Of a stretch of 64,000 nucleotides of DNA, positions 1,945 through 17,151 are shown one piece after another. The position numbers and the translations under genes are program-made. Position 1 is the first letter of the stretch, and every line of letters starts with the position of its first letter. The notes under the pieces were generated by a model that saw nothing but the letters and a program-made list of their open reading frames with translations, did no database searches and had not been told where the DNA came from. The stretch is from Pseudomonadota bacterium (GTDB lineage: Bacteria; Pseudomonadota; Gammaproteobacteria; Steroidobacterales; Steroidobacteraceae), in contig JANXOV010000082.1 of assembly GCA_025357635.1 (NCBI GenBank), positions 1 through 64,000 of the forward strand. The letters are read 5' to 3'.

Positions 1945-3339
1945 TTGGCCGAACCAGCGTGGAGCAAGCCCATTAAAACGCCGCCCATTGAGCAGAAAGT
2001 CGATCTTGGTGCCGCCCTGAAGGAACGTGGGATCGAGCACGTCAGGATCGGTGTCGTCGACACCGACGGAATCCTGCGCGGGAAACATCTCAGCCGCGAT
2101 AAATTCGCATCCGCGCTCGATAAGAACCTCGGATTCTGCGATGTCATTCTGGGCTGGGACTCGAACGACCAGCTCTACGACAACACCCAGTTCACCGGAT
2201 GGCACACGGCCTATCCCGATGCCACTGTGCGCGTACTGCCGCAGACGCAGCGGGACATTCCCTTTGAGCCGAAAACCGTGCTGTTTCTGGCTGAGTTTGC
2301 CGGCCGCGCCGAATCGATTTGCCCGCGCGGCACGCTGCGGCGGGTACTCGAGCGGGCCGCGAACATGGGGTATCGGGTGAGCGCGGCGGCGGAATTCGAG
2401 TTCTTCATGTTCCAGGAAACGCCGCAGTCCGTCCGTGAGAAGGGATACCGGCAACTCAAGACGATGACGCCCGGCAATTTCGGTTACTCGGTATTGCGCA
2501 GTTCCGTGCATTCGGATCTGTATCAGGAGCTTCTGGATCTGGGTCAGTCCATGCGATTCCCGATCGAGGGACTGCACACCGAAACCGGTCCGGGCGTTCT
2601 CGAAGCGGCGCTGACCTACTGCGATGCATTGGAGGCGGCGGATCGCGCGGCGCTTTTCAAGACTTACACCAAGGTACTCGCGCAGCGCCGCGGCCTGATG
2701 GCTACGTTCATGGCCAAGTGGTCCAACAGCGTGCCCGGCCAGAGCGGCCACCTGCATATCTCGATGCGCACGACGAACGGAGAGAGCGTATTCCACGACC
2801 CGTCCAAGCCGCATGACATGTCCGATACGATGCGTTGGTTTGTCGGCGGCCAGCAAGCCTTGATGCCTGAGCTGCTGGCGATGGTTGCGGGCACGGTGAA
2901 CAGCTATTCTCGGCTTGTGCCAGGGTATTGGGCACCCACGTCTGCGACCTGGGGAGTCGAAAACCGCACGACCGCGTTGCGCGTGATCCGCGGCGGACCG
3001 TCGAGTCAGCGCGTCGAGTATCGGATCGCCGCCGCCGACATCAATCCGTACATCGCGCTCGCTGCGGCAATTGGCTCCGGCTTGTGGGGCATCGAGCATC
3101 GCATCGAACCGGCGGCCCCGATCGCGGCCAATGCCTATGCCATGGCGCATCCGCCGCACCAGCAGCTGCCCGCCACACTCTTCGAAGCCGCTGAACGCCT
3201 TGCAGCGTCCAAGCCGGCGCGCGCACTGTTTGGCGATGCGTTCGTGGAGCATTACGCCGCCACACGGCAGTGGGAGGAGCGCGAGTTTCGCAAAGCGGTC
3301 ACCGACTGGGAACTTGCCCGTTACTTCGAAATCATTTGA
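1945..3339 (+). CDS. Glutamine synthetase-like gamma-glutamyl-amine ligase (PuuA/GlnA4/IpuC type)
   Basis: ATP-dependent ligase of 464 residues from the glutamine synthetase superfamily. The fold blocks are recognisable: AAEFEFFMF with glutamate metal ligands near residue 150, the ETGPGVLE and SGHLHISM blocks, and the late GVENRTTALRVI block. Family members that sit beside an aldehyde dehydrogenase, class I amidotransferase and amine permease attach glutamate to an amine (putrescine in PuuA, ethanolamine in Streptomyces GlnA4, isopropylamine in IpuC). The start is TTG at 1945: an in-frame TAG lies directly upstream at 1942-1944 and AAGG lies at 1938-1941. It heads a run with the dehydrogenases, hydrolase and permease downstream. 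True nitrogen-assimilation GlnA is unlikely given the context. The substrate (ethanolamine or N-methylethanolamine) is inferred. Confidence 0.85.
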   Translation: MAEPAWSKPIKTPPIEQKVDLGAALKERGIEHVRIGVVDTDGILRGKHLSRDKFASALDKNLGFCDVILGWDSNDQLYDNTQFTGWHTAYPDATVRVLPQTQRDIPFEPKTVLFLAEFAGRAESICPRGTLRRVLERAANMGYRVSAAAEFEFFMFQETPQSVREKGYRQLKTMTPGNFGYSVLRSSVHSDLYQELLDLGQSMRFPIEGLHTETGPGVLEAALTYCDALEAADRAALFKTYTKVLAQRRGLMATFMAKWSNSVPGQSGHLHISMRTTNGESVFHDPSKPHDMSDTMRWFVGGQQALMPELLAMVAGTVNSYSRLVPGYWAPTSATWGVENRTTALRVIRGGPSSQRVEYRIAAADINPYIALAAAIGSGLWGIEHRIEPAAPIAANAYAMAHPPHQQLPATLFEAAERLAASKPARALFGDAFVEHYAATRQWEEREFRKAVTDWELARYFEII

Positions 3340-3344
3340 GCTTC

Positions 3345-4739
3345 ATGATGACAGAGACACTCAAGACCATCAGTCCGGTCGACGGCCGCATCTACGTCGA
3401 ACGGCCGCTTGAAACCGGGGCCGGCATCGATCGGGCGCTCGACGCCGCCCAATCTGCGCAGCGCGCCTGGGCTTCGCTGCCGCTGACGGCACGCTGCGCG
3501 ATTCTGGGGAAGGCGGTTGACGCCTTCGTTGCCAAAGCGAACGACATCGCTGCCGAGATCACCTGGCAGATGGGCCGCCCCATTCGTCACGCCCCCGGCG
3601 AGGTCCGGGGCTTCGAGGAGCGCGCGCGCCATATGCTCAGCATCGCCGCCATGGCGCTCGACCCGGTGCGGCCCGATGACAAGACTGGCTTCCAGCGGCA
3701 GATCAAGCGCGTGCCGCTCGGTGTGGTCGCCGTCGTCGCACCCTGGAACTATCCCTATCTGACAGCGGTGAATGCCGTGCTGCCCGCGTTGATCGCAGGC
3801 AATGCGGTCATTCTCAAGCATTCGCATCAGACCCCGCTGTGCGCGGAGCGCTTCGGCGAGGCCTTTGCCAGCGCCGGTGTTCCGACCGGCGTGTTCCAGT
3901 ACCTGCATCTGTCGCACCAGAATACCGCACGGCTGATGGGTGACCCGCGCATCGCCAACGTCTGCTTCACCGGCTCGGTGTCCGGTGGTCGCGCGGTCGT
4001 CGCGGCGACGGCCGCGGGATTCGCCACCTCCGGTTTGGAACTCGGGGGTAAGGATCCCGCCTACGTGCGCGCCGACGCCGATCTTGCGCACGCCATCGAA
4101 ACGCTCACCGACGGCGCCTTCTTCAACGCCGGCCAGTCGTGTTGCGGCATCAAGCGCATCTACGTGGCGGCAACGCTGTACAAAGGCTTCGTTGCCGGCG
4201 TGGTGGATCTGACGAAGACGTACCAGTTAGGGTCCCCGCTCGACCCGGAAACGACGCTCGGGCCGGTGCTGCGCAGTGCCGCAGCCGAGGCGGTCCGCTC
4301 GCAGGTGCGCGAGGCCAAGGCGCGCGGGGCGCGCCAGCTCATCGACGAAACAGGATTCCCGGCGAGCGTCACCGGCACGCCCTATCTTGCGCCGCAAGTG
4401 CTGGTCGATGTCGATCACTCGATGGCGATCATGCGCGAGGAGACCTTCGGGCCCGCGGTCGGCATCATGAGTGTCGCCTCGGACGACGAAGCAGTGCGCC
4501 TGATGAACGACAGCGAGTTCGGTCTGACGGCCGCCATTTTCTCGGCTGACGCGGCGCGCGCCGAAACACTGGGCGATGCACTGGAGACCGGCACGGTTTT
4601 CCTGAACCGCTGCGACTATCTGGATCCCGCGCTGGCCTGGACCGGCGTCAAGAACTCGGGACGAGGCTGCACCCTGTCGCCGGTCGGTTTTGAGCAAATG
4701 ACGCGGCCCAAGTCCTATCACTTCAAGGTCACGACATGA
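3345..4739 (+). CDS. NAD(P)-dependent aldehyde dehydrogenase
   Basis: Aldehyde dehydrogenase of 464 residues. The general-base glutamate lies in ELGGKDPAYV and the catalytic cysteine in NAGQSCCGIK, which carries two adjacent cysteines; the cofactor-binding APWNYPYL block is also present. Two consecutive ATG codons at 3345 and 3348 follow the ligase stop by a few bases, so either is possible; the open frame extends further upstream inside the ligase gene but has no reason to be used. In the proposed pathway it oxidises the gamma-glutamylated aldehyde made by the next gene to the acid, the role PuuC plays in putrescine breakdown. It overlaps the alcohol dehydrogenase by four bases (ATGA), which implies translational coupling. 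Confidence 0.88.
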   Translation: MMTETLKTISPVDGRIYVERPLETGAGIDRALDAAQSAQRAWASLPLTARCAILGKAVDAFVAKANDIAAEITWQMGRPIRHAPGEVRGFEERARHMLSIAAMALDPVRPDDKTGFQRQIKRVPLGVVAVVAPWNYPYLTAVNAVLPALIAGNAVILKHSHQTPLCAERFGEAFASAGVPTGVFQYLHLSHQNTARLMGDPRIANVCFTGSVSGGRAVVAATAAGFATSGLELGGKDPAYVRADADLAHAIETLTDGAFFNAGQSCCGIKRIYVAATLYKGFVAGVVDLTKTYQLGSPLDPETTLGPVLRSAAAEAVRSQVREAKARGARQLIDETGFPASVTGTPYLAPQVLVDVDHSMAIMREETFGPAVGIMSVASDDEAVRLMNDSEFGLTAAIFSADAARAETLGDALETGTVFLNRCDYLDPALAWTGVKNSGRGCTLSPVGFEQMTRPKSYHFKVTT

Positions 4740-5911
4740 GCGCAGTGTTACGCGGCAATTGGAATTATCCGACCACGATCTGGGCCGGACCGGGCCGTAT
4801 CGCCGAGCTTGCGGAGGCGTGTTCGCGCACCAGCATCCAGCGGCCTCTGATCGTCACCGATGAGGGGTTGGCCACTGCGCCGATGATCACGAGCGCGCTC
4901 GCCGCCCTCAAACATGCCGCGCTGTTCGCTGCCGTCAGAGGCAACCCCGCCAGCAGCCACGTCGAGGCGGGCCTGCGCGCTTATCGCGCCGGTGGCCACG
5001 ATGGCGTCGTGGCATTCGGCGGTGGATCGGCGCTCGATGCCGGCAAGGTTGTGGCATTCATGTCCGGACAGACGCGCCCGCTGTGGGACTTCGAGGATAT
5101 CGGCGACTGGTGGACGCGAGCGGACCCCGCCGGCATCGCGCCGGTGGTTGCGGTCCCCACCACCGCGGGCACCGGCTCGGAAGTCGGCCGCGCCGGCGTC
5201 ATCCTCAACGAGGAGACCCACCAGAAGAAGATCATCTTCCACCCTCAGATGATGCCGCGCATCGTGATTGCCGATCCGGAACTCACCATCGGCCTGCCGC
5301 GTGCCGTGACCGCCGCCACCGGCATCGACGCCTTCGTGCATTGCTTCGAGGCATTCTGTGCACCCGGATTTCATCCGCTCGCCGATGGCATTGCACTCGA
5401 AGGCATGCGCCTTATCCAGCGCTTCCTGCCGCGCGCCTTCGCCGACGGCAACGACATCGAGGCCCGAGCGAACATGCTGGCCGCCGCCTCGATGGGCGCC
5501 ACGGCCTTTCAGAAGGGTCTGGGCGGCGTGCACGCAATCGCCCACCCGGTCGGTTCGTGGTTCAACACACACCACGGATTGACGAATGCCGTCATCCTGC
5601 CCTACGTCATGGAGTTCAACAGGCCTGCGATTGCCGACAAGACGGACGTGATCGCGCGGGCGCTCGACCTGCCTGCGCGCGGCTTCGACGGTTTCATGGA
5701 ATGGGTGCTGCAGATGCGCCGCGACCTCGGAATACCGCATTCGCTGGCCGACATCGGGGTAAGCGCGGAGAAGGCGGCGATCATCGGCCGCGAGGCGGCG
5801 CTGGATCCATCGGCGGCGGGCAATCCGATACCGGTCGACGCCGCGCAACTGGAGCGAATCTTCCGCGCCGCGGTCAGTGGAAAACTCGACGGCGGGGTGC
5901 GCGGCCCATGA
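4736..5911 (+). CDS. Iron-containing (group III) alcohol dehydrogenase
   Basis: Alcohol dehydrogenase of 391 residues in the iron-dependent family. The nucleotide-binding GGGSALDAGK block is near residue 97, TTAGTGSEVGR near residue 139, and the metal ligands are supplied by the GIDAFVHCFEAF block and by histidines in the HAIAHPVGSWFNTHHG region. It starts at an ATG overlapping the aldehyde dehydrogenase stop and ends in an ATGA overlap with the amidotransferase-like gene. A hydroxyl-oxidising enzyme is not part of the standard Puu putrescine route, so its presence points to an amino alcohol such as ethanolamine, whose glutamylated form would need oxidation first to an aldehyde and then to an acid. 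Confidence 0.9.
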   Translation: MSAVLRGNWNYPTTIWAGPGRIAELAEACSRTSIQRPLIVTDEGLATAPMITSALAALKHAALFAAVRGNPASSHVEAGLRAYRAGGHDGVVAFGGGSALDAGKVVAFMSGQTRPLWDFEDIGDWWTRADPAGIAPVVAVPTTAGTGSEVGRAGVILNEETHQKKIIFHPQMMPRIVIADPELTIGLPRAVTAATGIDAFVHCFEAFCAPGFHPLADGIALEGMRLIQRFLPRAFADGNDIEARANMLAAASMGATAFQKGLGGVHAIAHPVGSWFNTHHGLTNAVILPYVMEFNRPAIADKTDVIARALDLPARGFDGFMEWVLQMRRDLGIPHSLADIGVSAEKAAIIGREAALDPSAAGNPIPVDAAQLERIFRAAVSGKLDGGVRGP

Positions 5912-6753
5912 GCGGCCCTCGGATCCTGATCATCGACGGCAACGTTGCCGCGATTCGCGCGCGGCAGATGGCGGCGCTCGGCTACGACTCGGGCACCGGT
6001 TACGCCCGCGTCCTGCATCGCATCGACGCCTCGCTGCACATCGATGTCCTGACGGCTGCAGACGGCGCTTCGCTCCCAACCGGTGTGGGGCTCGACAGTT
6101 ACGACGGCGTCACCATGACAGGGTCAGCGCTCAATATCTACAATGGCGGCGAACCCGTCACCCGGCAGATCGAACTGGCCAAGGCCGTGTTGTCCGCCGG
6201 CGTGCCGTTCTTCGGAAGTTGCTGGGGACTGCAGGTCGCGGTCACCGCCGCGGGCGGTGATGTTCGCGCCAATCCGCGCGGCCGCGAGTTTGGTTTCGCG
6301 CGGCGCATTCTGCTCAGCGATGCCGGCCGCGAGCACCGCTTGTTCGCTGGCAAGCCCGTCGCGTTCGAGGCGCCGACGATTCATCGTGACGAGATTGCCT
6401 CGCTGCCGGCCGGCGCAGTGACACTGGCGGCCAATGACTTCGGTGTGCAGGCGGCCTCCTTCACCCACGGACCCGGCACGTTCTGGGGCGTGCAGTACCA
6501 CCCGGAGTATGACTACATCGACATCGCCGCCGCAGCCGAGCGCTACGGCGAGACGCTGGTCACTGAAGGCATGTTTCGCGACGTTGCGGCGCTGGCGGCA
6601 TTCGCCGCTGAACTTCGCGCCTTGCAGACGAACCCATCCGACGCGCCGCTGCTGTGGAAACACGGCCTGGGTCCGGCCATGCGCAGCGAGGCGCTTCGCC
6701 TGCTTGAAATCCGCAACTGGCTGGAAGATGTCGTGCGGCCCCGCATCGCATGA
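5908..6753 (+). CDS. Class I glutamine amidotransferase-like hydrolase
   Basis: Protein of 281 residues with a class I amidotransferase fold. The nucleophile is C105 in FFGSCWGLQ and the remaining triad is H198 and E200 in VQYHPEYD. In the amine context the likely job is hydrolysis of a gamma-glutamyl amide to release glutamate and the oxidised amine, as PuuD does, rather than ammonia transfer to a synthetase. The ATG at 5908 overlaps the upstream stop (ATGA); the frame continues upstream antisense-like inside the dehydrogenase, but that extension has no family similarity. The carboxy-terminal 60 residues extend beyond the minimal domain. A GMP-synthase-type amidotransferase role cannot be excluded from sequence alone. 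Confidence 0.82.
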   Translation: MSGPRILIIDGNVAAIRARQMAALGYDSGTGYARVLHRIDASLHIDVLTAADGASLPTGVGLDSYDGVTMTGSALNIYNGGEPVTRQIELAKAVLSAGVPFFGSCWGLQVAVTAAGGDVRANPRGREFGFARRILLSDAGREHRLFAGKPVAFEAPTIHRDEIASLPAGAVTLAANDFGVQAASFTHGPGTFWGVQYHPEYDYIDIAAAAERYGETLVTEGMFRDVAALAAFAAELRALQTNPSDAPLLWKHGLGPAMRSEALRLLEIRNWLEDVVRPRIA

Positions 6754-8135
6754 CGCAAATCGCGGTCGGACTGAACAGAACGCTCAGCGGCCTGCACCTG
6801 TGGGGCATCGCCGTCGGGCTGGTGATTTCCGGGGAATATTTCGGCTGGAGCTACGGCTGGGCGCAGGCCGGGACCCTCGGCTTCCTGGTCACCACGACGT
6901 TCATCGCTGTGATGTACACGACATTCATTTTCAGTTTCACCGAACTCACGACCGCGATACCGCATGCGGGCGGTCCATTCGCCTACAGCTACCGCGCCTT
7001 CGGTCCGGCCGGCGGCTATGTGGCGGGCTTTTCGACGCTGATCGAGTTCGTGTTCGCGCCACCGGCCATCGCCTTGGCGATCGGCGCATACCTGAACGTG
7101 CAGTTTCCGCAAATCGACGCGCGTACTGCCGCGGTCGGCGCCTACTTCGTTTTCATGTCCCTCAACATCGCCGGTGTGTCGGTCGCGGCAACCTTTGAGC
7201 TGGTCGTGACAGTGCTTGCGATCGGCGAGTTACTGGTCTTCATGGGTGTGGTGTCGAGCGGCTTCTCGTGGTCGAATTTTGCGCACCATGGATGGGCCGG
7301 CGCTGACCACCCCACGGCAGCGACCATCAGCGGAATTTTCGCCGCCATCCCCTTCGCGATCTGGTTCTTTCTCGCTATCGAAGGAGCCGCCATGGCCGCC
7401 GAGGAAGCCAAGGACCCCACGCGAACCATTCCGCGCGCCTACATCGGCGGCATTTTGACGCTCGTGGCACTGGCATTCGGCACCATGATTTTTGCCGGCG
7501 CGGTCGGGGACTGGAAATCCCTCGCCAACATCAACGATCCCCTGCCGCAGGCGATGAAGATCGTCGTCGGCGCCAGGAGCGGCTGGCTGCATCTGCTGGT
7601 GTGGATCGGCCTGCTCGGACTCATTGCCTCATTCCACGGCATCATCATGGGCTACTCGCGCCAGATATTCGCACTTGCCCGGGCAGGCCTGCTGCCAAGG
7701 ATGCTCGCCGCGATTCATCCGCGCTGGCGGACTCCGCACCGGGCGATCCTCGCCGGCGGTGCGATTGGCATCGCCGCCATCTACTCCGACAAGCTCGTCC
7801 GCATTGCCGGCCAGCCGCTCACCGCCAGCATCGTGACCATGTCGGCGCTCGGCGCAATCGTCATGTACATCATGAGCCTGCTGAGCCTGATGCGGCTGAG
7901 GCGCCTTGAACCGAACCTTGAACGGCCGTTTCGCGCGCCGTTATATCCCTGGTTTCCGCTCACGGCGCTGGCCATTGCATCCGTTTCGCTGGTCGCGATT
8001 GTTTATTACAACCTGCTCGTTTCGCTTTCGTTTGCAGTTCTCGGGGCCGCCGGCGCGATCGTGACCTATTGGCGGACAATGCGGGGATTGAATGAACAAA
8101 CCGATCCAATGCTGCGTCGCCCCGAAGGCGCCTAG
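6750..8135 (+). CDS. APC-family amino acid/amine permease, ethanolamine-permease-like
   Basis: Inner-membrane transporter of 461 residues with about 12 hydrophobic segments. The amino-terminal part, including ISGEYFGWSYGWAQAG and the following HAGGPFAY block, resembles proteobacterial ethanolamine permeases (Eat/EutP group of the APC superfamily), which import ethanolamine by secondary transport. It starts at an ATGA overlap with the hydrolase gene and is the last gene of the plus-strand amine run; the facing FAD dehydrogenase gene ends 23 bases beyond it. The resemblance to ethanolamine permeases is the best substrate clue in this locus, but other small amines or amino acids remain possible. 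Confidence 0.85.
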   Translation: MTQIAVGLNRTLSGLHLWGIAVGLVISGEYFGWSYGWAQAGTLGFLVTTTFIAVMYTTFIFSFTELTTAIPHAGGPFAYSYRAFGPAGGYVAGFSTLIEFVFAPPAIALAIGAYLNVQFPQIDARTAAVGAYFVFMSLNIAGVSVAATFELVVTVLAIGELLVFMGVVSSGFSWSNFAHHGWAGADHPTAATISGIFAAIPFAIWFFLAIEGAAMAAEEAKDPTRTIPRAYIGGILTLVALAFGTMIFAGAVGDWKSLANINDPLPQAMKIVVGARSGWLHLLVWIGLLGLIASFHGIIMGYSRQIFALARAGLLPRMLAAIHPRWRTPHRAILAGGAIGIAAIYSDKLVRIAGQPLTASIVTMSALGAIVMYIMSLLSLMRLRRLEPNLERPFRAPLYPWFPLTALAIASVSLVAIVYYNLLVSLSFAVLGAAGAIVTYWRTMRGLNEQTDPMLRRPEGA

Positions 8136-8158: not shown

Positions 8159-10588
8159 TCAGGCGCGCAAGCGCACGTTGTCGGGATCGAACAGCGGCTC
8201 GCGGCCCACGACGGCGCAGCGGCGCTCACCGAGGATTTCCACTTCCAGTTCCGTTCCCGCCTTCGCAAGATCCGTGCGCACATAAGCAAGCGCAATGCTC
8301 TTCCCGAGTCGATAGCCGTAGCCGCCCGAGGTGACGAGCCCCACGGTTTCGTCGCGATGAAAGACAATCGAGACAGCGGCCGCGTCCGCATCCGCTGCAT
8401 CCACGATCAAGGGAACGAAGCGCTCGCGCGGACCTGCCACGGCTTCACGCCGCAGCGCCTCTTGCCCGATGAAGCCGCCGGGCTTGTCGAGTTTGACGAA
8501 GCGATCCAGCGAGGCCATGAACGGCGTGTACTCGGTGGTCAAGTCCGCTTTCCAGGAGCGGTAGCATTTCTCCAGGCGCAGGCAATCCATGGCGTACAGC
8601 CCGTAGTCACCGATGCCGAGGCTCTCGCCGGCATCCATAAGCAAGTCGTAGACCGACAACAGGTGCTCCACCGGCAAATGCAGTTCCCAGCCCAGCTCGC
8701 CGACGTAGTTCACGCGCATGGCGATCGCCTGCGTGTAGCCGATCTCCATGCGCCGCATCGCAAGCCATGGAAATGCCGCATTTGACAAGTCTGTATGCGT
8801 CAGACGAGCGAGCAATTCACGGGATTTCGGACCCGCGACGATGAGCGTGCCGTAACGGTTGGAGACATTCGCAAGCTGCACATCGCCCGCGCCGGCCGGC
8901 AGATGCGCCTGCAGCCAGTGCTCGTCATGCCGCTCGCCGGCGGCGGCGCTGATCAGCCAATAGCGATCGGGTCCGAAACTGGTGAGCGTCATTTCGGTGA
9001 CGATGCCGCCGTTCGGAGCGCAAAAATAATTCAAGGCGGTGCGGCCCGGTTTGGGCAGCGAACCGGAGACCATGTGATCCAGCCACGCCGCAGCGCCGCG
9101 GCCGGTAAGTTCGAACTTGGTGAAGCCGGGCAAATCCAGCACGGCGACGCGCTCGTGCACGGCCTGGCATTCGCGCGCAACCGCTGCGTGCCAGGCGGGC
9201 CGGCGAAACGACAGTTCCGGTCCGCTCACCGATGTGTGCGGATCGGGGAAATACACCGCGCGCTCCCAACCGCCGCGCGCCCCGAACCTCGCGCCCTTGT
9301 CCTTCAGCCGTTGATACACGGGCGAGGTCTTTGCCGGCCGGCCCTCCGGCCGCTCTTCGGCCGGATACCCGATGCCGTATTCATGGCGATAGGTCTCCAA
9401 TGCCTTGGCCAGCGTGAATTTCTGGTTTGCGTATTCCAGATAGCGGCGCGAATCCAGCGGCCACATGTCCCATTCCGGCTGCCCGCGGGCAACCCATTCG
9501 GCGATGATCTTGCCTGCCCCTCCGGCCTGAGCGATGCCGAATGTGAAGGCGCAGCAATGGAAAAAATTCGGCAAGCCGGGCGCGGGTCCGATCAACGGAT
9601 TGCCATCCGGCGCATATGGTATCGGGCCATTGATCACGGTCTTGACGCCGATCGTGCCGAGTATGGGCACGCGCTCGCAGGCGTCCTGGATATACGCTTC
9701 CAGCCGGTCGGTCTCATCGGCGAACAATTGATTCGCGAATTCATCCGGAATCTGCTCCAGCCAATGCGCCTTGGGCTGTGACTCGTAGGGTCCGAGGATG
9801 AGTCCGTGGCGCTCCTGCCGCAGGTAATAGCTGATGTCCGGGTCGCGCAGCAGCGGCAAACGATCTGCCCCGCGCGCCACCAGTTCAGGGATGTCCTCGG
9901 TCACCATGTATTGATGCGCCAGGACCACCATCGGCAGATACGCCCCAACCATCGCCGCGACTTCGCCACCCCGATAACCGGCGGCATTGATGACGGACTC
10001 AGCGCGGATCTCGCCGTTGTTGGTGATGATGCGCCACTCGCCGCTGCGCTCGCGCTCAATGGCCGTGACGCGTGTATTGCGATGGATCTCAGCGCCGGCA
10101 TCGCGCGCGCCCTTGGCCAGCGCCTGCGTCAACTGCGCCGGATCGATATCGCCGTCGTAGGGGTCGTACAGTCCCGCCAGAATGTCATGCGTTTCGATGA
10201 ACGGATGGCGCGCGCGGATGTCCGCCGGACTCAGCATCTGAAACTCAATGCCCTGCGCGCGGGCCTGCGACAGCACATGCCGAAACTCATCGACCCGGTC
10301 CTGCGTGTGTGCCAGACGGATGCTGCCGGTGATGTGGTAGTTGATGTCGTAGCCGACGCGCTCGGCAAGTTCAGCATATAGCCGGGTGCTGTGCCGTTGC
10401 AGCTTGATGAGATTCCAGGAGGTGGAAAAATTCGGGCAATTCCCGGCCGCATGCCAGGTGGAACCGGCCGTGAGCTGATCGCGCTCCAGCAACACCGCAT
10501 CGGTGAGCCCGAGCTGAGTGAGGTGATACAAGGCGCTGCAGCCCACTGCACCACCGCCGATGACTACTACTTTCGCGTGCGTTTTCAT
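8159..10588 (-). CDS. FAD-dependent dehydrogenase with GcvT domain, dimethylglycine/sarcosine dehydrogenase-like (copy 1)
   Basis: Protein of 809 residues. Residues 1-380 form a D-amino-acid-oxidase-type FAD domain that opens with VVVIGGGAVGCSALYHL. The histidine in GSTWHAAGN occupies the position that carries covalently bound FAD in dimethylglycine and sarcosine dehydrogenases. The carboxy-terminal half is an aminomethyltransferase (GcvT) domain that binds tetrahydrofolate and traps the released C1 unit. Family members oxidatively demethylate N-methylglycines. The ATG at 10588 overlaps the stop of the upstream paralogue (ATGA), so the longer open frame is not used. It is likely the last gene of the mttB-led operon. 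The exact substrate is not readable; dimethylglycine, sarcosine or N-methylethanolamine are candidates. Confidence 0.87.
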   Translation of the reverse strand: MKTHAKVVVIGGGAVGCSALYHLTQLGLTDAVLLERDQLTAGSTWHAAGNCPNFSTSWNLIKLQRHSTRLYAELAERVGYDINYHITGSIRLAHTQDRVDEFRHVLSQARAQGIEFQMLSPADIRARHPFIETHDILAGLYDPYDGDIDPAQLTQALAKGARDAGAEIHRNTRVTAIERERSGEWRIITNNGEIRAESVINAAGYRGGEVAAMVGAYLPMVVLAHQYMVTEDIPELVARGADRLPLLRDPDISYYLRQERHGLILGPYESQPKAHWLEQIPDEFANQLFADETDRLEAYIQDACERVPILGTIGVKTVINGPIPYAPDGNPLIGPAPGLPNFFHCCAFTFGIAQAGGAGKIIAEWVARGQPEWDMWPLDSRRYLEYANQKFTLAKALETYRHEYGIGYPAEERPEGRPAKTSPVYQRLKDKGARFGARGGWERAVYFPDPHTSVSGPELSFRRPAWHAAVARECQAVHERVAVLDLPGFTKFELTGRGAAAWLDHMVSGSLPKPGRTALNYFCAPNGGIVTEMTLTSFGPDRYWLISAAAGERHDEHWLQAHLPAGAGDVQLANVSNRYGTLIVAGPKSRELLARLTHTDLSNAAFPWLAMRRMEIGYTQAIAMRVNYVGELGWELHLPVEHLLSVYDLLMDAGESLGIGDYGLYAMDCLRLEKCYRSWKADLTTEYTPFMASLDRFVKLDKPGGFIGQEALRREAVAGPRERFVPLIVDAADADAAAVSIVFHRDETVGLVTSGGYGYRLGKSIALAYVRTDLAKAGTELEVEILGERRCAVVGREPLFDPDNVRLRA

Positions 10589-13044
10589 TTCATGCGTTCG
10601 TTGTTCGGATCGTACCAGGGCTTGAGTTGGACATTGGCCGCGTAGCGTTCGCAGGCCACTTCGACCTGCCATTTCCCGCCGGCGAGCCACTCGGGCGTGA
10701 CGCCTTGCGGACAGCTCACATAGCCCATGCCGATGGAGCGATCAAGACGATGACCCCATGCGCCGGAGCGGATCGAGCCCACGATGGCCCCGTCACGAAT
10801 GAGGGGCTCCTCGTGATACAGCATGGGCGAGGTGGCGGATGAGTCCTCGAGCATCACCTGCACCAGGCGGCGCGTGGCGGGAGCGGAGGCTTTGCGCCTG
10901 GCCAATGCCTCACGTCCGAGAAAGCCGCCGGGCTTGTCCCAGGCCACGGTGAAGGCGAGTCCGGACTGGATGGGATCGTCTTCATCCGCGATATCGTGGC
11001 CCCAATGCCGGTAGCCCTTCTCCACGCGGCAGGCAGCCATCGCGTGATAGCCCGCGTGCTTCAGGCCAAGCGCCGCGCCCGCCGCCAGCAGGCGCTCGTA
11101 GACATCCAGGCAATGCTCGGTGGGCAGGTACAACTCCCAGCCGAGTTCGCCGACATAACTGATACGGCTGGCTCGCACTGTGGCATAGCCGATTTCGATC
11201 TCTCGCGACCAGCCGAAGGGATGCGCAGTGTTGGAAAGATCCGCGCCCGACAAGCCCTGCAGCAGCTCGCGGCTTCGCGGACCCATCACGCCCAGCATGG
11301 CGATGCCCGACCCCACGTCCGTCACCGTGCAGCGCGCATCGCGCGCCGCGATGTGGCGCCGCAGCCAGGCAAGATCGCGCGTCTGACACACAGCCGAGGT
11401 GACCACCCAGAACACCTCCTCGCTGATGCGCGTGATGGTGAGGTCAGCCTCGATACCGGCTCGCTCGTTGAGCCATTGCGTGTAGACAATGCGCCCCACC
11501 GGCACATCAACCGAGGCGGTGCACAAATAGTTCAGCAGTGAGCAGGCTTGCGGGCCCTGCACCAGAAACTTGGCGAAGCTGCATTGATCAAATAGCGCGA
11601 CGTGATCGCGTGCAGCCAGACACTCGGCGCGCGTGGCGTCGAACCAGTTTTGCCGGCCGAAGGAATATTCGTAGGCGGGACTCTCACCAGGCGCCGCGTA
11701 CCAGTTCGGCCGCTCCCAACCGGCGGTCTCGCCCATGCACGCGCCCGCCGCGACCAGCCGGTCATGCAGCGCGCTGCGGCGCGCGCCGCGCGCCGTGCGG
11801 TACTGATAGTAAGGCCAGTGCATCGCATACAGCAGGCCGAGCGTCTCAACAGTTCTGTCGTGCAGGTATTTGCGATTGGCCTGAAACGGCATCACGCGCC
11901 GCACGTCGACATCGGCAAGATCCATCGGCGGGTGCCGGTCCCGGATCCACTCCGCCATGACCTTGCCCACGCCGCCGCTGGCCGCGATGCCGACGGAGTT
12001 GAAACCCGTGGCCACGAACAAATCACGGACCTCGGGGGTTTCTCCCAGGTAGTAGCGGTCATCGGGCGTGAAGCTCTCGGGTCCATTGAAAAACAGCTGG
12101 ATGCCGGTCTGCGCCAGCGCCGGTACGCGCTGCACCGCAGCTTCCAGGATGGGCTCGAACTGCTCGTGATCCGCCGGCAGCGAGTCGAAACAAAATCCCT
12201 CCGGGATGCCCTGCATACCCCACGGTTTGGCGATGGGCTCAAAACATCCCAGCAGCAGCTTGCCCGCGTCTTCCTTGTAATAGGCGCACTCATCCTGCGC
12301 CCGCAGCACCGGCAGATTCTTGGGCAGATCAGGGATCGGCTCGGTGACGATGTAGAAGTGCTCGGCGGCGTGCAATGGCACGGCCGCACCGCAGTCGGCC
12401 GCAAGACGGTGCGACCACATGCCCGCGCACAACACCACCGTATCGGCGGCGATGAATCCGTCCTGCGTCTCCACGCCGGTAGCGCGGCCACCTTCGATGC
12501 GGATTTTTTTGACAGGCGTGTTCTCGAAAATCTTTGCGCCGCGCAGCTTGGCGCCCTTGGCGAGCGCCTGAGTCGTATCGATCGGATTTGTCTGGCCATC
12601 TTTGGCGATGAAGATCCCGCCCGCCAGGTCATCAGTCCTCACCAGCGGCCAGCGCTCCTGAATCTGTTCCGGCGAGAGCACGTCGATCTCCAGGCCGAAG
12701 CCTTTGCCCATGGAAGCGCCGCGCTTCAGTTCCTCGAAGCGCGCCACCGTCTTGGCCAGGCTGATGGAGCCGTTCTGTTTGAACCCCGTGGCTTGTCCGG
12801 TCTCGGACTCCAGCGAAAGAAACAGATTCGCGGTGTACTGGGCAAGTTCGGTGAGATTGCGCGTGGCCCGCAGCTGCCCGACCAGCCCGGCCGCATGCCA
12901 GGTGGTGCCGCAGGTAAGCTGGCGGCGCTCGAGCAGCACCACGTCCGTCATGCCCAGCTTCGCCAGATGGTAGGCGATCGAGCAACCGGCAACTCCGCCG
13001 CCCACGATGACGACGCTCGCGCGGCTGGGAATCCCTTGAGACAC
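10585..13044 (-). CDS. FAD-dependent dehydrogenase with GcvT domain, dimethylglycine/sarcosine dehydrogenase-like (copy 2)
   Basis: Second DAO plus GcvT protein, 819 residues from GTG 13044 or 832 from ATG 13083. The GTG start leaves a 7-base gap after mttB; the ATG start would overlap mttB by about 30 bases. The domain order matches the neighbouring copy: an FAD motif SVVIVGGGVAGCSIAYHL, the covalent-FAD histidine in GTTWHAAGL, and a tetrahydrofolate-binding GcvT half. The sequences differ widely outside the motifs, so this is not a recent duplication and the two copies probably act on successive methylation states of one substrate. Its stop overlaps the next gene by four bases. Confidence 0.87.
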   Translation of the reverse strand: MSQGIPSRASVVIVGGGVAGCSIAYHLAKLGMTDVVLLERRQLTCGTTWHAAGLVGQLRATRNLTELAQYTANLFLSLESETGQATGFKQNGSISLAKTVARFEELKRGASMGKGFGLEIDVLSPEQIQERWPLVRTDDLAGGIFIAKDGQTNPIDTTQALAKGAKLRGAKIFENTPVKKIRIEGGRATGVETQDGFIAADTVVLCAGMWSHRLAADCGAAVPLHAAEHFYIVTEPIPDLPKNLPVLRAQDECAYYKEDAGKLLLGCFEPIAKPWGMQGIPEGFCFDSLPADHEQFEPILEAAVQRVPALAQTGIQLFFNGPESFTPDDRYYLGETPEVRDLFVATGFNSVGIAASGGVGKVMAEWIRDRHPPMDLADVDVRRVMPFQANRKYLHDRTVETLGLLYAMHWPYYQYRTARGARRSALHDRLVAAGACMGETAGWERPNWYAAPGESPAYEYSFGRQNWFDATRAECLAARDHVALFDQCSFAKFLVQGPQACSLLNYLCTASVDVPVGRIVYTQWLNERAGIEADLTITRISEEVFWVVTSAVCQTRDLAWLRRHIAARDARCTVTDVGSGIAMLGVMGPRSRELLQGLSGADLSNTAHPFGWSREIEIGYATVRASRISYVGELGWELYLPTEHCLDVYERLLAAGAALGLKHAGYHAMAACRVEKGYRHWGHDIADEDDPIQSGLAFTVAWDKPGGFLGREALARRKASAPATRRLVQVMLEDSSATSPMLYHEEPLIRDGAIVGSIRSGAWGHRLDRSIGMGYVSCPQGVTPEWLAGGKWQVEVACERYAANVQLKPWYDPNNERMK

Positions 13045-13051
13045 GGTGTGT

Positions 13052-14620
13052 CTAGGCCTTGCGGCCGGGCAGCATGGAATCACGCGGCAGCTTCACCGGA
13101 AACTTGCTGCGTATCTCGGCATCCACCGCTCCTGCGATGTGCGAGGGGAAGTGCGAGGTGAGGATCTCCTCGACCTTGCGGTGGGCGCGCTGCGTGACAT
13201 CCAGACCGCCCTGCTCGAGCCATTCGTTCGGGCTCTTGCGGTCACCCACTGCCGGATACAAGTATTCCGTCTGCATCAACTGCAAGGTCTGATCGCTGCC
13301 TAGGAAATGACCCGGTCCGTTCAGGCACACGTCCTTGATGACATCGAACGACAGGCGCTCTTCACTGACCTCGATGCCTTTGATGGTTCGCTGCGCCGAG
13401 CCGATGATGTCATTGTCGATGATCAGACTCTCCAGCGAGAAACCCAGCAGACTTGCATGCATGCCGGCGGACTCGTAGATGAGATTCGCGCCGGAGTTTC
13501 CGACCAGCGCATGATTGAGCCCCTTCTCGGCGCCCGATTGCGCATCGGGAACCTTGGCATCCGTCATGCCGGAGGCCGTGCCGCCGGTCAGATCATAGAA
13601 CTGCGCCATTTGCGCAGAAGCCGAGGACAGCAACGCCTGCTCCGGACTGCCACCGGACATCGCGCCCGTACGCAGATCGGACACGAAACACCAGGTTCCG
13701 AAAATAGCAGGATGTCCGGGCTTGATCGCATTGACGTAGACCAGACCGGCGAGCACCTCGGCAACTTCCTGCGCGAGCGCCCCTGCCAGCGCCGCCGGCG
13801 CCGTGGCGCCGGCCTGCCCCGCCGACAGCAGCAACACCGGCATGCCGCCAGCGACCGCCAGTTCAAGGCAGCGGCAGGCATCGGTTGCGAACTTCATCGG
13901 GGGAACCACGAAGCAATTGGACTGGCTGACAAAGGGACGCTCGCGCCATTTATCTTCCCCGCCGGCAATGCTGTGCAGCATCTGAAACGAGGCGGCCAGG
14001 TGCTCGGGTTGAACCCAGCTGCTGCCCACATGCTTGGTGGTGCTCGACACCGCGGCATAGCAGGTGTTGAAGTCCATCTCGTAAGGATCAGGAATGTCGC
14101 GCGGCACCACCGCTCGCTGGAAGAAATGGATGTGGTCCATCAAGTCCACGATGCGGCCGATGTCGTACAGATCCTGAATGGTCGAACCGCGATATGCGTT
14201 GTGCACATCGACCATGTTCACGGCGGCGCCCGCCGTACCGAAATAGGTCCGGGTGCCCCAAGGCTCCAGATCGTGGCGGGGATCCTGGGCGAACAGTGGG
14301 AAACGGCGCGCCGCCTTGGCCAGCGTGTCTTCCACCAGGGACTGCGGAAACAGCAGCCGGCCCCGATCGTTCAGCGTGCACCCGGCGCGGGTCAGAAGCT
14401 CCACCCCCGTGTCGGGCGCGTCCGCAAACCCGACCTCGCTTAGCAAACGCAAGGCGGTGGCGTGAATGGCCGCAATGTCGGTTTCGCTGAGCGGCCGATA
14501 GCGGCCTCCGGACATGCCGGGGCGCACCGGCCGCAGATGATCCGGAAGCGGTGCGGCTCGCTGCGCGCGGCGCAGGTCCCGGCTGGAGGGTCGTCGCGCT
14601 ATGCAGCCTTTGTCATTCAC
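13052..14620 (-). CDS. MttB-family (trimethylamine methyltransferase) protein without pyrrolysine
   Basis: Corrinoid-dependent methyltransferase family protein of 522 residues. The family includes pyrrolysine-containing trimethylamine methyltransferase of methanogens and non-pyrrolysine relatives such as the glycine betaine methyltransferase MtgB. There is no in-frame amber codon here, so it belongs to the second kind. GTG at 14620 is chosen because AGGAGA lies 8 bases upstream; the longer frame beginning at 14719 lacks such a site. It is first in the minus-strand operon with two demethylating dehydrogenases. No corrinoid carrier protein or activating enzyme is encoded in the window. The substrate is probably a quaternary or tertiary amine. 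Confidence 0.85.
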   Translation of the reverse strand: MNDKGCIARRPSSRDLRRAQRAAPLPDHLRPVRPGMSGGRYRPLSETDIAAIHATALRLLSEVGFADAPDTGVELLTRAGCTLNDRGRLLFPQSLVEDTLAKAARRFPLFAQDPRHDLEPWGTRTYFGTAGAAVNMVDVHNAYRGSTIQDLYDIGRIVDLMDHIHFFQRAVVPRDIPDPYEMDFNTCYAAVSSTTKHVGSSWVQPEHLAASFQMLHSIAGGEDKWRERPFVSQSNCFVVPPMKFATDACRCLELAVAGGMPVLLLSAGQAGATAPAALAGALAQEVAEVLAGLVYVNAIKPGHPAIFGTWCFVSDLRTGAMSGGSPEQALLSSASAQMAQFYDLTGGTASGMTDAKVPDAQSGAEKGLNHALVGNSGANLIYESAGMHASLLGFSLESLIIDNDIIGSAQRTIKGIEVSEERLSFDVIKDVCLNGPGHFLGSDQTLQLMQTEYLYPAVGDRKSPNEWLEQGGLDVTQRAHRKVEEILTSHFPSHIAGAVDAEIRSKFPVKLPRDSMLPGRKA

Positions 14621-14712
14621 CGTGCTCTCCTGAGTCTGATATCGAACAACGAACAGATGGCCAGCACAGCACGTGAATTTGCACCGCTGATCGGAACACC
14701 ACGCTGAATTAT

Positions 14713-14740
14713 TTGCCATTCCACAGACATTGGCTAGTGT
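14713..14740 (+). promoter_or_regulatory. Possible promoter for the GNAT gene in the mttB-GNAT divergent region
   Basis: The 283 bases between the GTG of the MttB gene (14620) and the ATG of the acetyltransferase (14904) must hold both promoters. A sigma70-like pair reading rightwards is TTGCCA at 14713-14718 and TAGTGT at 14735-14740 with a 16-base spacer. The match is imperfect and the leader would be long, so this is a weak call. No clear repeat or riboswitch fold was recognised in the region. Confidence 0.25.
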
Positions 14741-16005: not shown

Positions 16006-17151
16006 CTAACCCGAAATCAGACTATCTCGCCCGATATCGGCTATGCGCTTACACCCCGTCAACGCCATGGCAACCCGAATTTCGGACTCGATGATCTGCA
16101 GCACATGCGCAACCCCGGCCCCGCCCGCGCCGGCCAGCGCGTAAGCCCAGGCTCGACCGAGAAGCACGCCCCTGGCGCCGAGCGCGAGCATGCGCACCAC
16201 GTCCAGTCCGCTTCTGACGCCGCCATCGGCGAGTATGGTTAATCGATCGCCCACCGCATCGGCGATCGCAGGCAAGGCCCGCGCGGTCGAAGGGACCCCA
16301 TCGAGTTGACGGCCGCCGTGATTCGACACCACGAGGCCATCGGCGCCAAGCGCTGCGGCACTGCGCGCATCGTCGGCATCGAGAATGCCTTTGATGATGA
16401 GCGGCTTCGTCCATTGCGCGCGAATGAAATCCAGGTCCTGCCAGCTGATCGAGGGATCGAAGTTCTCCCCAACCCAGCGGAAAAAATCATTCAGACCGGC
16501 TTTGTTTCCCATCGCGGGCGCCACGTTGCCCAGACTGTGCGGGCGGCCCCGCAGCCCGACGTCGATCATCCATCGCGGCCGGCATAGCGCCTGACCGAAG
16601 CGGCGCGTAGCGCCCACCAAACCTGGAGCCCCCGCGAGACCCGAGCGGTAGTCGCGATATCTGACACCAGACACCGGCATGTCTACCGTGAACATCAGGG
16701 CGTCGCAGCCCGCCTCCAGCGCCCGGGCGAGCAGGTCCCGCATGAAGCCTCGGTCGCGGATCATGTACAGCTGAAACCAGATCGGCTTGTGAACCTGAGT
16801 CGCCACTTCGCCCAGTGCGCAGACCGACACGGTCGACAACGTGAACGGCACGCCGGCCGCCTGCGCCGCTCTGGCCGCCTGCACTTCACCGCGGCGCGCA
16901 TTCATGCCGGCGATGCCGATCGGCGCGAGCGCCACCGGCATCGAAACTTGGCGTCCGAACAGCGTGGCCGACAGATCCAGGTGCGCAACGTCGCGCAGCA
17001 CCCGTTGACGCAGCTCCACCTGCCGCAGGTCGCTCAGATTGCGGGCGAGAGTCAGTTCATCGTACGAGCCGCCGTCGATGTATTCGAATAAAAACCGCGG
17101 CAATCGACGACGCGCAAGCTCGCGATAATCGGATACGGAAACGGCTTTCAT
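16006..17151 (-). CDS. lldD: L-lactate dehydrogenase (FMN-dependent, quinone-linked)
   Basis: FMN-dependent alpha-hydroxy acid dehydrogenase of 381 residues, closely similar along its whole length to E. coli LldD. Shared blocks include [12 protein letters not shown] at the start, [30 protein letters not shown], the FMN/substrate block [10 protein letters not shown] with the catalytic histidine, and [20 protein letters not shown]. It oxidises L-lactate to pyruvate at the inner membrane and passes electrons to quinone. No lactate permease or LldR regulator is adjacent, unlike the enterobacterial lldPRD operon. The outer-membrane-like gene upstream ends 15 bases before its start and may be cotranscribed. 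Confidence 0.9.

Follow-up and report, generated by a model that had tools for sequence, protein, structure and literature searches.

A conserved operon of an MttB-superfamily methyltransferase and two dimethylglycine-dehydrogenase-type proteins as a candidate N-demethylation module in a Steroidobacteraceae bacterium

In this study, we analyzed a 64,000-nucleotide stretch of a Steroidobacteraceae genome (positions 1 to 64,000 of contig JANXOV010000082.1, assembly GCA_025357635.1; hereafter, the window) and focused on a compact minus-strand operon of three complete genes at 8159-14620. These genes encode a member of the MttB methyltransferase superfamily and two proteins of the dimethylglycine dehydrogenase (DMGDH) type, DH2 and DH3 (Table 1). 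Our results support a model in which the operon forms a three-step aerobic N-demethylation module that would yield a primary amine, with conversion of choline to ethanolamine, used by a facing ligase operon, as the leading case. We consider this reading reasonably probable rather than certain.

The assignments of the three proteins come from profile matches, structural homologues and individual residues. The MttB protein matches PF06253 at 371 bits (cut-off 25) over positions 3-489 of 500, and this nearly full-length match, together with homology to solved MtgB/MttB structures in the PDB (E ~5e-63), places it in the superfamily. The pyrrolysine-containing trimethylamine methyltransferase MttB can be ruled out, as the column matching the M. 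barkeri pyrrolysine holds Met, no in-frame stop is present, and the TIGR02369 score is 358 bits against a cut-off of 525. DH2 and DH3 each carry DAO, FAO_M, GCV_T and GCV_T_C domains across their full length, which is the DMGDH architecture, and human DMGDH (5l46) matches them at 464 and 669 bits, respectively. In both proteins, the WHAAG-motif His that links flavin adenine dinucleotide (FAD) is intact, and the equivalents of His225 and Tyr259 of Arthrobacter dimethylglycine oxidase are kept in the alignment. At the position of the folate-site residue Asp552, DH2 keeps the Asp and DH3 has Glu, as does human DMGDH; entry 3gsi has Ala at this position. In the oxidase, His225 and Tyr259 are catalytic residues. 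DH2 and DH3 thus both possess the four domains, the FAD-linking His and the catalytic His and Tyr of the dimethylglycine/sarcosine dehydrogenase family, and they are predicted to be N-demethylases of the DMGDH type.

The three genes are tightly packed. The mttB gene starts with a GTG at 14620 behind an AGGAG, the same start as in an earlier sequence-only reading of the window; DH2 starts with a GTG at ~13044, a few bases past the mttB stop; and the ATG of DH3 at 10588 overlaps the DH2 stop (ATGA). The earlier description, a non-pyrrolysine MttB homologue and two divergent dimethylglycine/sarcosine-dehydrogenase-type proteins in one minus-strand operon, is borne out by the profiles, the intact residues and this packing.

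Table 1. Genes of the minus-strand operon and of the facing plus-strand operon, by position in the window. Open frames used in the profile search, all on the minus strand, were 13052-14719 (MttB), 10585-13083 (DH2) and 8159-10690 (DH3).
Feature	Positions	Strand	Basis
MttB-superfamily methyltransferase, non-pyrrolysine, "E-type" clade; proposed first N-demethylation	13052..14620	-	PF06253 371 bits, solved-structure homology, clade support 100/100, residue signature
DH2, FAD/tetrahydrofolate DMGDH-type demethylase (predicted)	10585..13044	-	DAO, FAO_M, GCV_T, GCV_T_C; equivalents of WHAAG His, H225, Y259, D552 present
DH3, FAD/tetrahydrofolate DMGDH-type demethylase (predicted)	8159..10588	-	Same four domains; 669 bits vs human DMGDH; catalytic His, Tyr present
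Glutamine-synthetase-like (GS) ligase, proposed gamma-glutamyl amine (ethanolamine) ligase	1945..3339	+	PF00120 328 bits
Aldehyde dehydrogenase (ALDH)	3345-4739	+	Pfam; open frame
Fe-alcohol dehydrogenase (Fe-ADH)	4736-5911	+	Pfam; open frame
Class I glutamine amidotransferase (GATase)	5908-6753	+	Pfam; open frame
APC permease, ethanolamine permease family	6750..8135	+	NCBIfam TIGR00908 583 bits, cut-off 382

The grouping of the three genes is not a matter of chance, because orthologous trios recur in many genomes, mostly at 74-85% identity within the same family. The trio extends across Gamma-, Beta- and Alphaproteobacteria with varying gene order, including versions of lower identity in Comamonadaceae-like, Dongia-like, Sinorhizobium and Shinella records, and in the Sinorhizobium record DH2 is split into two frames. 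Some Rhizobiales keep mttB without nearby dehydrogenases. At several loci of the genus g6, DH2 and DH3 occur without mttB, which is expected if MttB adds only the quaternary step. This pattern supports mttB, DH2 and DH3 as one conserved module. Upstream of mttB in the window lies an L-lactate dehydrogenase-family gene (16006-17151), of which homologues at 45-47% identity adjoin mttB at other loci (L057, L075 and L133-L135); it was considered as a further member of the module, and no case could be made for it.

Given that both dehydrogenase families fit a glycine betaine pathway, the operon might be a second copy of that pathway, with MttB acting as MtgB and with DH2 and DH3 as dimethylglycine and sarcosine dehydrogenases. 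A related module in group f7, which adjoins genes for carnitine 3-dehydrogenase, a BKACE enzyme and a BCCT transporter that would lead to glycine betaine, points in the same direction. However, the residues Tyr94, Asn199, Arg309 and His345, predicted by docking to bind glycine betaine in Desulfitobacterium MtgB (PMC6855144), are all replaced throughout the window MttB clade, which reads Gly, Phe, Gly and Glu at these positions, with one Ala and with other letters in three outlying members. All four are present in the MttB encoded on contig C136 of the window genome itself and in six orthologues of that protein. A tree of 66 MttB proteins unites the window protein with its orthologues and separates them, at 100/100 support, from the remaining paralogues in the sample; the MttB of Methanosarcina lies on their side, on a long branch. 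Furthermore, three genomes (G060, G034 and G068) contain exactly two mttB genes, one canonical and one of the window (E-type) kind, and in G068 and G034 the canonical gene shares an island with genes for DMGDH, sarcosine oxidase and RamA, while in G060 it is accompanied by those for DMGDH and RamA. The window genome likewise has DMGDH- and sarcosine-oxidase-type genes elsewhere, on contig C54, so that the canonical glycine betaine pathway has genes of its own. Thus, the window MttB is unlikely to be the enzyme for glycine betaine, and we regard a second glycine betaine pathway as quite improbable.

If the window MttB acts as a methyltransferase of this superfamily, it would need a corrinoid system, and this is found elsewhere in the genome. 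Among genes of the window genome, which include six PF06253 members, there is a single PF02607 corrinoid protein, a stand-alone protein of the MtgC type on C54 (L167), surrounded by genes for a DMGDH, a sarcosine oxidase alpha subunit, a betaine-type transporter and an AraC-type regulator, as well as by SoxB-, SoxG-, BetA-, BetB- and PurU-like genes that we recognized by eye. On C136 (L162), the best-scoring mttB adjoins RamA-type (RACo), Pterin_bind (MtgD-like), MTHFR (MetF-like) and DUF1638 genes. Corrinoid protein, corrinoid:tetrahydrofolate methyltransferase and reactivase are thus all encoded in the genome, on C54 and C136, and none of them in the window operon; a corrinoid protein was sought near the operon and none was found. 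The first step of the module therefore depends on genes outside the window, and the earlier claim that all demethylating steps are present locally does not hold for the corrinoid protein or for the MtgD-, RamA- and MetF-type functions. Corrinoid dependence is supported by the position of window-type mttB beside mtgC in several relatives, and we infer that the C54 MtgC is the partner of the window MttB. A system resembling that of the window genome, MtgBCD(E), has been shown to demethylate glycine betaine in Ruegeria pomeroyi, and aerobic bacteria carry up to seven MttB paralogues per genome, many without an assigned substrate, with further PF06253 paralogues predicted to act on other methylated compounds (PMC12478193).

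Several side observations concern the same metabolism. C54 and C136 together hold an MtgBCD-type glycine betaine set and genes for a split methionine synthase. A MetH with several domains did not appear in the genome, in which PF02607, PF00809 and PF02574 matches lie in separate short frames. The genome has 21 GCV_T matches in all, most of them in large frames, and together with these gene sets this indicates a strongly N-methyl-oriented metabolism. Genes resembling cobaltochelatase CobS/CobT, recognized by eye only, lie near window-type mttB at L080, L117 and ~10 other loci.

In the model that we favor, MttB would transfer the first methyl group of a small trimethylammonium compound to the stand-alone MtgC-type corrinoid protein, from which an MtgD-type protein would pass it to tetrahydrofolate. 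DH2 and DH3 would then oxidize the tertiary and subsequently the secondary amine, handing the methyl groups as methylene to tetrahydrofolate via their GcvT domains. The product would be a primary amine, in the leading case ethanolamine from choline or perhaps from an activated form of it, which the facing operon could glutamylate, oxidize and hydrolyze to glutamate and glycine.

The facing plus-strand operon is consistent with such a role. Its GS-like ligase falls short of the cut-off of each of three models, GlnA, type III GS and gamma-glutamylputrescine synthetase, and the order of the ligase, ALDH, Fe-ADH and GATase genes is kept in relatives. The gene set for ethanolamine gamma-glutamylation, comprising a GS-like ligase, alcohol and aldehyde dehydrogenases, an amidohydrolase-type protein and a transporter, is complete, with the ligase substrate predicted. 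In the available portions of the reports on the ethanolamine pathway (PMC10132767) and on the similar Streptomyces glnA4 cluster (PMC6529630), the operons share with ours a GS-like ligase, alcohol-oxidizing and aldehyde dehydrogenases, an amidohydrolase or glutamine amidotransferase, and a transporter. The window differs from them in the type of transporter and in the addition of MttB and the demethylase pair, of which those portions make no mention.

Whether the two operons work together is a separate question, and the possibility that a genuine demethylation module merely lies beside a functionally unrelated operon retains a sizable minority share of our belief. The two operons are arranged tail to tail with 23 bp between the permease and DH3 stops (8135 and 8159), so there is no promoter region common to both, and among the relatives searched this exact arrangement was seen only in the window. 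A set of 40 regions suggested no link between ligase operon and trio; family-wide searches and neighbor analysis partly reversed this. In a survey of 217 family genomes, DH3 orthologues were found in 61 and GS in 73; with the addition of G241, where a contig end truncates DH3, 34 of the 62 DH3 genomes also have GS, and DH3 is present in 15 of the 17 permease-bearing genomes (p = 4e-5 and 1.5e-7, respectively, both ignoring phylogeny). GS and DH2/DH3 lie within ~15 kb of each other in the window as well as in G241, G281, G327 and G118, all four of g6, so that co-localization recurs in a second genus with a different layout. In G241, for instance, the order is DH3-DH2-MttB-AptA-IclR, then Xsc, permease, PhnX-like, PhnW and a transporter, then GS and ALDH.

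Genes for choline sulfatase, PotDABC and AptA are neighbors common to both sides. A choline sulfatase gene (807 bits, cut-off 433) stands between DH3 and GS in G118, and a homologue at 73-74% identity is directly divergent from GS in G158 and G355. PotDABC occurs on both sides in sister genera: it follows the permease in 9 of the 11 permease-bearing g10 genomes (in one of them, the contig ends after PotD) and is tail to tail with DH3 in seven g7 genomes, the equivalent of the position held by the permease in the window; its value as specific proof of a link is weakened by G187, where it lies beside a GS-like, FAD and aminotransferase set resembling polyamine use. In G265, an Xsc-IclR-AptA set is directly upstream of GS. 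Because these neighborhoods are repeated yet differently arranged, a functional link is likely but not certain. The association of the operons is real but loose: the synteny of mttB, the FAD genes and the ligase, named as a check in the sequence-only reading, holds as recurrent co-localization, not as a fixed facing arrangement. As a separate observation, the gene that faces the ligase operon in G155 is another DMGDH-like one, together with a truncated MttB of the kind encoded on the window genome's own C14 (L197, 2656-5894).

With regard to the substrate, the neighboring genes have in common small amines that carry a two-carbon tail (ethanolamine, choline, taurine and 2-aminoethylphosphonate). 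Conversion of choline to ethanolamine is favored by the choline sulfatase genes, by a ligase operon of the ethanolamine type and by the loss of those residues predicted to bind a carboxylate, and choline-type compounds are the most likely substrates for the window. Of the earlier proposal, the single module and its recurrent link to the ligase operon are supported; ethanolamine itself is a predicted product, and taurine-type genes also cluster with DH2/DH3. These latter genes raise the alternative, which we judge unlikely, that the same mechanism acts on N,N,N-trimethyltaurine (taurine betaine) or beta-alanine betaine, giving taurine or beta-alanine for transamination, with the ligase operon merely a fellow amine-use module. 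In g6, an AptA-type omega-aminotransferase gene (592 bits, cut-off 500) adjoins the module on the same strand and a true Xsc (904 bits, cut-off 676) is divergent; MmsA lies 33 bp past DH2 in G068 and adjoins DH2 in G060, and its place after DH2 in f12 suggests beta-alanine there; and both AptA and MmsA face the trio in G311. AptA and Xsc would favor taurine betaine in those g6 genomes, and a similar set occurs on the Ruegeria pomeroyi megaplasmid (L159, 7944-17264), where a divergent LysR gene is followed by mttB, a class III aminotransferase gene, two FAD/GcvT dehydrogenase genes and an Xsc-like thiamine pyrophosphate gene. On the other side, the surroundings of the window trio yielded no homologue of AptA or MmsA (the check for Xsc-like genes there used only the distant Ruegeria gene), and the choline sulfatase and PotDABC genes that occur as neighbors elsewhere suggest a cationic compound. 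It may be that the MttB/DH clade does not have one single substrate. The Ruegeria locus is in its own right a candidate taurine-betaine-type pathway in a model organism, and the g6 loci L297 and L288-L291 join genes for taurine (AptA, Xsc), 2-aminoethylphosphonate (PhnW, with PhnX-like or with PhnA and PhnY), N-demethylation and amine glutamylation.

Beyond these taurine- and beta-alanine-type neighbors, several points weigh against a choline-to-ethanolamine module coupled to the ligase. To our knowledge, no enzyme of the window MttB clade has been assayed. The BetA- and BetB-like choline-oxidation genes of the genome would make choline demethylation a second route. The ligase is absent from 28 of the 62 DH3 genomes, and in most genomes with both operons these are on different contigs. 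Finally, the glycine betaine residue set derives from docking, without a ligand-bound structure (PMC6855144). A complete aerobic route from choline to ethanolamine, in which one corrinoid-dependent and two folate-dependent flavin demethylations are coupled to gamma-glutamylation, bypassing glycine betaine and delivering three one-carbon units, is accordingly a tentative proposal that we hold to be somewhat doubtful.

Comparison with known systems indicates what is new. Like MtgBCD of Ruegeria pomeroyi (PMC12478193), the window genome is that of an aerobic proteobacterium and combines a PF06253 enzyme with one stand-alone corrinoid protein, MtgD, RamA and DUF1638, followed by DMGDH-type enzymes; unlike MtgBCD, the window has an MttB from a separate clade that lacks the predicted glycine betaine residues, a dehydrogenase pair of its own in the operon and a recurrent link to amine glutamylation. 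We regard it as one of the MtgB-type demethylation systems, distinguished by this pair and this link. The MthB/MthC/MthA system of Eubacterium limosum also combines an MttB-superfamily enzyme with corrinoid, tetrahydrofolate and a choline-derived substrate, as proposed here for the window, but by its description it differs in operating in a gut acetogen, converting phosphocholine to the dimethyl compound without DMGDH steps (PMC12155760). DH2 and DH3 resemble mitochondrial DMGDH and Arthrobacter dimethylglycine oxidase in their four domains and aligned catalytic residues; unlike those enzymes, they are two diverged paralogues that travel as a pair.

In summary, we found a clade of MttB proteins with its own demethylase pair and informative neighbors, which makes its substrate directly testable. 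Our literature search found no description of aerobic choline demethylation by MttB and DMGDH-type enzymes. If choline is the substrate, the module would add to the two fates of oxidation to glycine betaine and cleavage to trimethylamine another one, connected with one-carbon metabolism and with the use of ethanolamine. Aerobic growth on choline-type molecules by this route would be undescribed.

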